Of a stretch of DNA of 49,713 nt, positions 40,753 to 42,919 are shown one piece after another. The translations under genes and the position numbers were made by a program. The notes below the pieces were generated by a model. The model had not been told where the DNA came from, made no database searches, and worked only from the letters and a program-made list of their open reading frames with translations. Positions within the stretch are counted from its first letter, which is position 1; each line of letters starts with the position of its first letter. Origin of the DNA: an uncultured Gammaproteobacteria bacterium (lineage in GTDB: Bacteria; Pseudomonadota; Gammaproteobacteria; Pseudomonadales; Litorivicinaceae); NCBI GenBank assembly GCA_913057215.1, contig CAJXNQ010000011.1:1-49713 (forward strand). Direction: 5' to 3'.

Positions 40753-41314
40753 CCACATCCAAGACCTGCCAAGCCCTCGGGTTTTCAAACCAGGGCCTCA
40801 GTAGGCGCGCGCCGTAGCCCAGGGCAAAAAACCAGACCCAGCTTGCCGAGACGGCGCCAAGCGTGAAACTGGCACGATCCGCCGGCGCGTACTGCGCCCC
40901 AATCCCACCAATTAATACCAGCGTGTCAAGATACACGTGTGGGTTGAGTAATGTGATCCCAAACATGGTCGCAAGTGCCGGCCAAAACCCGGTGACCACT
41001 CGACCCGCCGTATCCAATGCCTGAAACTTCAGTGCAGCGCGAAAGCACAACCCACCGTAACCGAACAAGAACAATGCACCCCCCCACAGCGCGATCGTCT
41101 CAAGTGACGGCCACTGCGCAAGCAAGGTCCCCATGCCGTACACACCGGCACTCATCAACAGTGTGTCGCATACGATGCACACAAAAACCGATTCAGAAAC
41201 CCGATGACCTGCAATCCCTTGACGCAACACATGGGCGTTCTGCGCACCAATGGCGGCAATCAACCCAAGTGCCACAATAAAGCCTGAGGCAAACACCCAT
41301 CCATCAAAGGTCAT
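40706..41314 (-). CDS. ArgO/LysE-family amino acid exporter
   Basis: Inner-membrane exporter of basic amino acids or analogues, 202 residues with six predicted helices. The family start is GFIVALGLIAAIGAQNAHVLRQG; TLLNPHVYLDTLVLIGG is the second conserved repeat. The ATG at 41314 gives the normal ArgO length; the open frame continues 75 codons upstream without family similarity and is rejected. No ribosome site precedes the ATG, and the start lies within a perfect inverted repeat (41309-41329). A strong promoter at 41333-41361 predicts a very short leader. It resembles arginine exporter ArgO more than lysine-specific LysE, but specificity is uncertain. Confidence 0.85.
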   Translation of the reverse strand: MTFDGWVFASGFIVALGLIAAIGAQNAHVLRQGIAGHRVSESVFVCIVCDTLLMSAGVYGMGTLLAQWPSLETIALWGGALFLFGYGGLCFRAALKFQALDTAGRVVTGFWPALATMFGITLLNPHVYLDTLVLIGGIGAQYAPADRASFTLGAVSASWVWFFALGYGARLLRPWFENPRAWQVLDVAIGCLMWVLGLTLLL

Positions 41315-41329
41315 ACGATAAATATGACC
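41309..41329. repeat. perfect 7-bp inverted repeat covering the argO-like start codon
   Basis: GGTCATA and TATGACC flank a 7-nt spacer (CGATAAA on the plus strand). The exporter start codon lies in one arm. It could be a repressor or LysR-type binding site, or a hairpin in a very short leader that hides the start. Confidence 0.5.
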
Positions 41330-41332
41330 GAA

Positions 41333-41361
41333 AATATACGATTGGTCACTGATAATACCAA
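41333..41361 (-). promoter_or_regulatory. sigma70-type promoter of the ArgO-like exporter with an overlapping dyad
   Basis: On the minus strand the -35 is TTGGTA (41356-41361, 4 of 6), the spacer is 17 bp and the -10 is TATATT (41333-41338, 5 of 6). Transcription would start near 41326, about 12 nt before the ATG. The dyad TTGGT-N10-ACCAA (41342-41361) covers the -35 and spacer and is a candidate operator. Confidence 0.5.
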
Positions 41362-41377
41362 ATATGTGAATTCGTTT

Positions 41378-41383
41378 TATATT
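41378..41383 (+). promoter_or_regulatory. candidate -10 element for isocitrate lyase
   Basis: TATATT matches the -10 consensus at 5 of 6 positions, but no good -35 lies 16-18 bp upstream, so an activator or another sigma factor may be needed. Starting here gives an aceA leader of about 220 nt. This is the best plus-strand candidate I see between the divergent genes. Confidence 0.3.
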
Positions 41384-41408
41384 GCGGTGCACACTCTCGA
41401 CCGGTCCG

Positions 41409-41574
41409 CTGAAGTTCATGGACGAACTCAGGCTAATGGCCAATGGAAAGGAGCCAGCAGGATGGGGAGTATACACACCATCCGTCGGGTGATGGGTCAA
41501 CAGGATGACTGACCTCCGGCTGGTTGTGCGCAAGCACACAATTGAGGGCCAATCGGGACTCGCGTACCGATTGG
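41409..41574 (+). promoter_or_regulatory. structured 5' leader region of aceA with several hairpins
   Basis: Four stem-loops can be drawn on the plus strand. 41409-41431: CTG(A)AGTTC with GAACTCAG, loop ATGGAC. 41460-41483: GGATGG with CCATCC, 12-nt loop. 41524-41541: GTGC-GCAA-GCAC core with a GNRA-type loop. 41549-41574: CCAATCGG with CCGATTGG, a perfect 8-bp stem followed by TATTTATTT, terminator-like. The last ends 34 nt before the aceA ATG. I cannot assign it to a known riboswitch class. Confidence 0.45.
41462..41512 (+). CDS. possible 16-codon leader peptide upstream of aceA
   Basis: An ATG at 41462 follows AAAGGAG with 8 nt spacing, the best ribosome site in the region. It opens a 16-codon frame, [16 protein letters not shown], ending TGA at 41510-41512. 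The start codon lies in the left arm of the 41460-41483 hairpin. Its stop overlaps the start of the next small frame. It may simply be chance; no similarity is recognised. Confidence 0.3.
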   Translation: MGSIHTIRRVMGQQDD

Positions 41575-41618
41575 TATTTATTTCACCTGATGCAGAGGGG
41601 GTGATTTCATGGAAATGA
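41505..41618 (+). CDS. possible 37-residue small protein overlapping the aceA start
   Basis: An ATG at 41505 opens 37 codons (beginning [18 protein letters not shown], ending VISWK). The stop at 41616-41618 lies inside aceA and overlaps its third codon, an ATG, in ATGA form. The start overlaps the preceding 16-codon frame, so 16-codon frame, 37-residue frame and aceA could be translated in chain. The product is soluble-looking with no signal peptide or known motif. No strong ribosome site of its own is seen. It could be a leader peptide, a real small protein, a remnant of a gene, or chance. Confidence 0.3.
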
Positions 41619-42919
41619 CACGCGAACAGCAGATTGCTGCGATTGAAAAGGATTGGGCTGAAAACCCACGTTGGACCGGTGTGACGCGGACCTATTCCGC
41701 AGAAGACGTGGTGCGTTTACGTGGCAGCATTCAGCCTGCAAACACCATTGCCGACCGGGGCGCCAGAAAACTCTGGGATCTCGTCAACGGCGATGCCAAA
41801 AAAGGCTATGTGAACTGCCTGGGTGCGCTGACTGCAGGTCAGGCCATGCAACAGGTCAAAGCCGGCATTGAGGCGATTTATCTGTCAGGGTGGCAGGTGG
41901 CTGCGGACAACAACACCAGCTTGTCGATGTATCCCGATCAGTCGCTGTATGCGGTGAATTCGGTCCCGACTGTGGTCCAGCGTATTAATAACGCGTTCCG
42001 TCGTGCTGACCAGATTCAGTGGAAAGCAGGTAAGAATCCAACAGACGCCGATTATGTGGATTATTTCGCACCCATCGTCGCTGATGCAGAAGCAGGTTTT
42101 GGTGGCGTTCTCAATGCCTATGAATTGATGAAAGCCATGATCGAAGCCGGTGCGGCTGGTGTGCACTTCGAAGACCAGCTGGCGTCTGTGAAAAAGTGTG
42201 GCCACATGGGTGGAAAGGTATTGGTACCCACCCAAGAAGCGGTTCAAAAATTGATCGCGGCCCGTTTGGCAGCCGATGTTGCCGGCGTCCCAACCATTGT
42301 CTTGGCGCGGACGGATGCCAACGCAGCCGATCTCCTCACCTCAGACTGTGATCCGTATGATCAGTCATTCACCACAGGTGAGCGCACAGCCGAAGGCTTC
42401 TATCGCGTTCGTGCGGGTATCGACCAAGCCATTTCACGTGGACTCGCGTATGCACCCTATGCAGATATGCTCTGGTGTGAAACAGCAACACCGGATCTTG
42501 ACGAGGCGAAGAAGTTCGCAGAAGCGATCAAGGCCGAATATCCGGATCAGCTGTTGGCGTATAACTGTTCACCGTCGTTTAACTGGAAGAAGAACTTGGA
42601 TGACGCCACCATTGCGAAGTTCCAAGCGGAACTCTCAGCCATGGGCTACAAGTATCAGTTCATCACCTTGGCGGGTATTCACAACATGTGGCACAACATG
42701 TTTGAGCTTGCGTATAACTACTCACGCGGCGAAGGCATGAAGCACTATGTTGAAATGGTACAGGAGCCTGAGTTTGCAGCGTCTGAGCGCGGCTACACCT
42801 TTGTTGCACACCAGCAAGAAGTTGGAACCGGCTACTTTGACGATGTCACCACTGTGATCCAGGGTGGCACATCAAGCGTCACAGCCTTGACGGGCTCAAC
42901 TGAAGAAGAGCAGTTCTAA
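41609..42919 (+). CDS. aceA: isocitrate lyase AceA
   Basis: It splits isocitrate into succinate and glyoxylate, the first step of the glyoxylate shunt used on acetate and fatty acids. It has 436 residues, close to E. coli AceA. The catalytic motif KKCGHMGGK spans 195-203 with C197 as the active-site cysteine; [14 protein letters not shown] supplies metal-binding acids. The ATG at 41609 has AGAGGGGGT about 6 nt upstream; an in-frame ATG at 41615 is an alternative. It is a single-gene unit: a long structured leader before and a strong bidirectional terminator after. Malate synthase is not in the window. Confidence 0.97.

Follow-up and report, generated by a model that had tools for sequence, protein, structure and literature searches.

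A conserved structured RNA leader upstream of isocitrate lyase in the marine OM252 clade, a candidate for CsrA-type translational control

The stretch of DNA analysed here (49,713 nucleotides, hereafter the window) is contig C11 of genome G000 (1.58 Mb, 53 contigs), a genome that is placed by its sequence in the OM252 clade ("Ca. Halomarinus") of the Litoricolaceae. The region of interest is the divergent gap between a minus-strand gene resembling lysine/arginine exporters, which scored under the NCBIfam cut-offs, and the plus-strand gene aceA, encoding isocitrate lyase. This enzyme decides the fate of acetyl units, which are either burned or kept as biomass. The aceA product was assigned with NCBIfam NF011645 (789.5 bits, cut-off 562) and TIGR01346, and its homologues in seven members of the genus were 94-95% identical. 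The features of the locus are as follows (coordinates in the window, strand, description and basis):

41342..41361, no strand assigned: conserved imperfect palindrome TTGGTCACTGATAATACCAA, putative operator for a transcription factor of aceA (sequence conservation)
41378..41383, plus strand: TATATT, putative -10 element (kept in five of seven relatives)
41403..41441, plus strand: hairpin H1 (comparative pairing; ANGGAN loop)
41460..41483, plus strand: hairpin H2, stem GGAUGG/CCAUCC, loop with AGUAUACAC (z -3.1; conserved loop)
41484..41520, plus strand: hairpin H3, lower stem GUCGG/CCGGC, upper stem GGUCA/UGACC, asymmetric internal loop (two-sided changes in both stems)
41524..41541, plus strand: hairpin H4, UGUGC-GCAA-GCACA (100% of cells paired)
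41549..41574, plus strand: hairpin H5, stem of 8-9 bp, loop with CGCGU (covariation; z -3.6)
41583..41604, plus strand: Shine-Dalgarno (SD) hairpin UCACC-UGAUGCAGAGGG-GGUGA (22 nt identical in 8/8 leaders)
41609..42919, plus strand: aceA, isocitrate lyase, 436 aa, ATG at 41609 (NCBIfam NF011645 and TIGR01346)

The two promoter-proximal elements were compared among the genus relatives. The first 19 nt of the palindrome were identical in G001, G008, G002 and G009, with one change in G015 and five in G020; the contig of G013 stops short of it. The palindrome sits directly upstream of the -10 element, and GGTCA...GACC words resembling it occur in the sister genus; it probably serves as an operator through which a transcription factor controls aceA. 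As for TATATT, the G013 contig ends before the element and the G020 sequence differs. An aceA transcript starting near 41390 would fit the conserved TATATT and, because this -10 element is conserved, we infer a transcribed leader of approximately 220 nt.

In H1, the window carries an upper stem GUUC/GAAC (41414-41417 and 41424-41427) closed by the hexaloop AUGGAC (41418-41423), which is of the ANGGAN type bound by CsrA/RsmA. This upper stem and its loop are intact in the window, and three of the nine lower pairs are non-standard in the register of the model; in five relatives, the lower stem is completely paired. Taken together with a closing helix P0 (GCAGUGCA/UGCACUGC), H1 (9 bp + 5 bp) had 99.1% of its cells paired in these five relatives, with a single two-sided change and a covariation score that was reached by 95/500 shuffles, i.e. 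no excess; the G013 contig ends within H1. The comparison supports the H1 helix in the relatives more weakly than H3 and H5. P0 was rejected as a part of the window structure: 5/8 of its pairs are non-standard there and, although paired in the five relatives, it showed zero two-sided changes.

The arms of H2 vary among lineages but, as judged by eye, still pair, and the loop motif AGUAUACAC is present in 7/8 leaders. H3 presents at its apex (41501-41507) the word CAGGAUG, the word of CsrB-type CsrA sites; the energy model favours a slightly different pairing, GGUCA/UGACU with the hexaloop ACAGGA. Changes in H4 are one-sided (G-C/G-U) only. In the window, H5 reads CCAATCGG-GACTCGCGTA-CCGATTGG: a perfect 8-bp stem at 41549-41574, with TATTTATTT next to it on the 3' side and 34 nt between the end of the hairpin and the ATG, as the original prediction had described it. 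Three versions of its stem were found, namely CCAAUCGG/CCGAUUGG (window), GUUCUUCGG/CCGAAGAAC (relatives) and GUCGCCCGA/UCGGGCGAC (G020), with 100% of cells paired, two-sided changes in 6/9 pairs and the loop motif UCGCGUAC fixed in 7/8 leaders. Downstream of H5 lies an unusually strong SD sequence, AGGGGGUGA (41596-41604), and the region that contains it, UCACCUGAUGCAGAGGGGGUGA, is identical in all eight leaders, G020 included.

Single-sequence folding was compared with shuffled controls. The 225-nt leader of the window, taken alone, folded no better than chance (z -0.95, 35/200 shuffles as good), and its minus strand gave z -1.63 (11/200). Individual hairpins differed: H5 (z -3.6) and H2 (z -3.1) were each equalled by 1/500 shuffles, and H3 (z -0.7, 108/500), H1 (z -1.0, 67/500) and the SD hairpin (z -1.6, 40/500) were unremarkable in the window. 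In relatives, z ranged from -1.6 to -2.4 for H5 (four sequences) and from -1.2 to -4.1 for H3 (three sequences). The evidence for structure in these sequences is thus comparative, and folding of the single window contributes to it in part.

Alignment A2 covered the 3' part of the leader in six relatives, with the helices H3 lower, H3 upper, H4, H5 and the SD hairpin. Standard pairs made up 97.9% of its cells and seven cells changed two-sidedly (0/500 shuffles for each measure); the number of two-sided pairs (four) was equalled by 43/500 shuffles and is not decisive. A covariance model, R1, was built from A2, so that neither the window nor G020 contributed to it. R1 gave a full-length match to the window leader (100.5 bits, E 2.7e-25); in the divergent G020 leader it matched H5 and the SD hairpin only (37.8 bits, E 1.7e-8). 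A sequence-only model of the same alignment, R2, gave 63.9 bits for the window and 18.9 bits for G020; the gain of R1 over R2 is indicative because the effective sequence numbers of the two models differ (1.08 and 1.32). In G020, the segment with H5 and the SD hairpin is kept (L009 1442-1495), and the upstream leader is largely replaced.

Alignment A4 extended the comparison to eight sequences from approximately four lineages (32 pairs, 237 cells) and was fitted to the structure; a ninth, spurious row contributes no cells. In A4, 97.5% of the 237 cells pair and 12/32 pairs change two-sidedly (21 cells), and 0/500 shuffles reached the paired fraction, the two-sided pairs, the two-sided cells or the covariation score. 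When the structure was slid along the alignment, 33-47% of cells were paired, with six two-sided pairs at most. The two-sided pairs fall in H3 lower (four), H3 upper (two) and H5 (six), and none in H4 or the SD hairpin. Further pair types (21) showed no excess over shuffles in A4 (167/500), and the same was true of A2. Cells with G.U outnumbered those with A.C by 21 to 4 (A3 and A4), as expected for an RNA of the aceA sense.

A plain MAFFT alignment of seven sequences was also scanned against column shuffles. H5 alone covaried, the other stems of the window being misaligned. Four five-bp helices had at least two two-sided pairs (mean 0.23 and maximum 2 in 100 shuffles), and the top score of 4 was reached by one shuffle; helices with at least one two-sided pair (five) were not unusual (shuffle mean 2.9, maximum 11). 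In 14 control windows of the aceA coding sequence, helices with at least two two-sided pairs numbered 0 in twelve windows, 1 in one and 2 in one, and between 1 and 11 helices per window had one or more. The original prediction of a structured, cis-located RNA thus holds: compensatory changes, whose absence in related genomes had been named as grounds for dismissing it, are present in those genomes (12/32 pairs in A4). From the aligned sequences it is near certain that the leader forms a conserved RNA structure in cis, and the comparison establishes the H3 and H5 helices, their conservation, the preference for the aceA sense and the restriction to aceA.

Within the genus, the leader accompanies the gene. 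Among 22 genomes of the genus, aceA was found in eight, in agreement with the published split into subclades I and II, and two more held 3' fragments at contig edges; the leader was present in 8/8 genomes holding the 5' end of aceA. R1 matched 8/25 genomes of the family, once each and always at aceA, in a scan that scores only its best candidates, and no extra copies of the leader were found across these 25 genomes. On 390 genomes of the order, searched with stricter filters, R1 returned the same eight and a weak match in G082 (E 0.031), which was taken as chance because it lies inside a Rho gene. In the sister genus, three genomes with aceA, whole or partial, gave no R1 match. Two of their aceA leaders (G023 and G024) were seen to be shorter and different, with GGA words, and both carry GAG-GGA-CUC immediately before the start codon. 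Two further observations concern the gene itself: the open frame around aceA has 461 codons in G020 vs 442 in other genus members, and G019, a genus member that lacks aceA, has a weak match to the aceA C-terminus (G019:C3:86538-86723, 55% identity, E 2.4e-13) with three internal stop codons, perhaps a decayed remnant of the gene.

The SD-region 20-mer, searched for exactly in 84,980 species genomes, occurred in seven contigs: LSUCC0096, HIMB30, two Litoricola MAGs and three other gammaproteobacterial or Oceanospirillales MAGs. Their leaders are those of the seven genus relatives, which had been identified independently, and the two sets are identical over 180 nt. Rfam 15 gave 0 matches at gathering score in the window; with E up to 10 across 41200-41800, MicA alone was returned (E 0.75, minus strand), and a search of four loci (the window's site and those of three relatives) gave five sub-threshold matches, none within the leader. 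A blast search of the leader against plasmids gave no match. The original prediction could not match the element to a known class, which agrees with the Rfam search, and by sequence the leader is an RNA of one marine genus without an entry in Rfam 15. The leader is not described in the titles and abstract openings among the literature matches listed, a source with few subscription journals, and the words riboswitch, CsrA and isocitrate lyase are absent from the main text of the OM252 paper.

The original prediction drew an analogy with SAR11, where a glycine riboswitch reportedly controls malate synthase. On that account, the likeness lies in a structured leader upstream of a gene of the glyoxylate shunt, in marine bacteria with streamlined genomes; unlike that system, the aceA leader has no glycine-riboswitch match, and both the gene and the architecture differ. 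The upstream regions of malate synthase in five genus genomes seemed, by eye, unrelated to the aceA leader, and a leader common to both genes was rejected, R1 finding only the aceA site in the genus genomes. For this leader, the analogy is thus weak.

The conserved SD block bears on the level of control. Mean unpaired probabilities of the SD were 0.10-0.46 across the eight leaders, so that it is predicted to be more paired than not. Its predicted partner varies among the eight sequences in modelled folds of the ligand-free RNA with nested pairs, and because the partners differ the occlusion model is not conserved in silico; a conserved long-range switch has little support on the same ground. 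The UCACC/GGUGA pairing of the SD hairpin is a model-based reading: nothing varies within the block, so the comparison is unable to prove its pairing. Given that the SD hairpin is invariant in 8/8 leaders, control by the leader is probably exerted on translation. Three other pairing schemes were considered, none of which had support in the full sequence set: a pseudoknot or kissing interaction of the H2 loop with the H5 loop, a dimer through a palindromic loop (GUAUAC), and base pairs between the loops of H3 and of the SD hairpin (AUCAGG/CCUGAU), which number 6 in relatives and 4 in the window.

For the regulator that would act on such a leader, we give about an even chance to a CsrA-controlled translational leader, with the binding predicted from sequence motifs. 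The ANGGAN hexaloop of H1 is found in 6/8 leaders (G013 is cut off and G020 lacks it). The six loops are AUGGAC, AAGGAU, AUGGAU, AGGGAU, AGGGAA and AGGGAU: the A and the GGA are fixed, and variation occurs at exactly the two N positions of ANGGAN. The chance of such a hexaloop on at least four pairs was 0.02-0.04 per leader in shuffles, and in the 49.7 kb of the window two were found on the plus strand, H1 included, and four on the minus strand. H3 provides a candidate second site for the CsrA dimer, with CAGGACG or CAGGAUG in 7/8 leaders; the shuffle chance per leader was 0.06-0.11 for CAGGA(U/C)G and 6-12% for CAGGA(H)G, and in the window a further copy lies outside H3. G000 encodes two CsrA (PF02599) matches, and at least one is found in 24/25 genomes of the family. 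In the sister genus, the aceA leader of G023 has one ANGGAN hexaloop when at least three pairs are required (by eye, AGGGAC on GAUC/GAUC), and that of G024 has none.

These motifs agree with published CsrA sites. RsmE targets ANGGAN hexaloops and the repeats of CsrB present CAGGA(U/A/C)G in their loops (PMC7652899), aceA of E. coli is under positive CsrA regulation (PMC3856055), and the SD hairpin of ymdA is opened by CsrA (PMC7492729); aceA is absent from the main text of another E. coli CsrA study (PMC5694010). UvrY activates CsrA-antagonist sRNAs in E. coli (PMC7492729) and positively affects aceAB in Shewanella (PMC3171408). The direction of control cannot be borrowed from either organism because the two signs oppose each other if both act via CsrA.

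Several observations fit the CsrA reading less well. GGA occurs eight times in the window leader vs 7.4 expected, i.e. without overall enrichment, and the other leaders are similar. The SD hairpin UCACCUGAUGCAGAGGGGGUGA has no GGA, unlike the commonest CsrA repression sites; a GGA overlapping the SD is not required by other CsrA mechanisms (PMC7492729, PMC7652899). The H3 stems are longer than CsrA prefers, its SELEX hairpins having mostly four contiguous pairs or fewer (PMC7652899). G020 has neither the H1 hexaloop nor a CAGGA(H)G word, and the sole possible stand-in, picked out by eye in the fold predicted for it, is an ACGGACA loop. In a search limited to the RsmZ family (RF00166), 0/5 genomes had an sRNA above cut-off. 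The fixed loops of H2 (AGUAUACAC) and H5 (UCGCGUAC) are unaccounted for by CsrA; they might make tertiary contacts or be recognised by a ligand or a further protein.

Compared with known CsrA/RsmA-controlled leaders (E. coli ymdA and glgC, P. aeruginosa psl; PMC7492729, PMC7652899), the aceA leader shares GGA in a loop of the 5' leader, an SD sequestered in a hairpin (predicted for aceA) and an encoded CsrA. It differs in its GGA-free SD hairpin, in having two more hairpins whose fixed loops contain no GGA and in its confinement to one genus. Hairpins with CAGGA(U/C)G or ANGGAN in the loop are also shared with CsrB/RsmZ-type sRNAs; those are free sRNAs with many such hairpins, whereas aceA has an mRNA leader with two. 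The proposed mechanism would run as follows, with the transcription start, the SD occlusion and the CsrA binding all inferred. The aceA mRNA would begin near 41390 and carry a leader of approximately 220 nt, consisting of H1-H5 and a hairpin that hides the SD, which would act in cis on the translation of isocitrate lyase. CsrA/RsmA would bind H1 (ANGGAN) and H3 (CAGGA(U/C)G) at their GGA loops, tethering or bridging them, and the resulting remodelling would set the accessibility of the SD and so link the carbon-status circuit with the glyoxylate shunt.

Other explanations of the same leader were weighed against CsrA control. Transcription attenuation, with H5 as an intrinsic terminator, had been suggested because H5 is strong and TATTTATTT comes after it in the window; the U-run is absent in relatives (ACAUUAAUUUC, ACAUUCAUUUC, ACAUAACUUC), a terminator scan of 41000-42000 found no plus-strand site, and the invariant SD hairpin lies directly 3' of H5. 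Because H5 has no U-run in relatives, control is likely at translation and not at termination, and the attenuator, as originally proposed, is very improbable. Scarcely any weight is given to a small protein or leader peptide whose frame would run across the start of aceA: a 37-codon ORF spans -104 to +9 relative to that start in the window and frames with a start codon exist in G013, G008, G015 and G002, against which stand an in-frame stop in G001, the lack of any such ORF listed for G009 and G020, and start positions that vary between sequences. It is unlikely that the leader is simply a stable 5' structure which senses nothing and determines basal translation or the half-life of the mRNA. 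In its favour, an mRNA can be protected by structure at its 5' end, and in all eight leaders the SD is predicted to be mostly paired; against it, the fixed loops inside covarying stems suggest specific recognition.

In another reading, the leader would be a new metabolite- or ion-sensing RNA, in which H1-H5 would form the aptamer and the SD hairpin the expression platform. Loop motifs are fixed in 7/8 leaders while the stems of H3 and H5 covary, the SD hairpin is invariant and the enzyme stands at a metabolic branch point. This reading is nonetheless improbable: the RNA is confined to one genus and one gene and has no Rfam class, no conserved mutually exclusive pairing was seen among the eight sequences, and R1 recognises no more of G020 than H5 and the SD hairpin. 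A protein-controlled leader is the better reading because CsrA-type sites are present. The two ideas could be combined in a clade-specific two-input switch, improbable in our view, in which H2 and H5 would form or flank the binding core for a metabolite from glyoxylate or one-carbon metabolism and the CsrA loops of H1 and H3 would add a protein input. Finally, the SD block may be the pairing target of a trans-encoded Hfq-type sRNA, with the upstream hairpins protecting or presenting it, a quite unlikely arrangement. In its favour, the 22-mer is identical in 8/8 leaders, even in G020 with most of its leader changed, an invariance that such pairing would explain; against it, a search of both strands of the 22 genus genomes with the full 20-mer only (three mismatches or fewer) found the eight aceA sites and one other. 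This extra copy (G000:C1:97516-97535, three mismatches) falls within the coding sequence for an ornithine carbamoyltransferase and is likely due to chance.

Solid as a structure, the leader is most simply read as a CsrA-type translational leader. A conserved aceA leader of approximately 220 nt, found in OM252 genomes possessing the shunt, implies that mRNA-level control of the glyoxylate shunt has been kept in a small-genome ocean bacterium. Since two of its carriers, LSUCC0096 and HIMB30, are isolates, the leader is directly testable. If the CsrA reading is true, it would be a natural CsrA target whose architecture can be traced through compensatory evolution.
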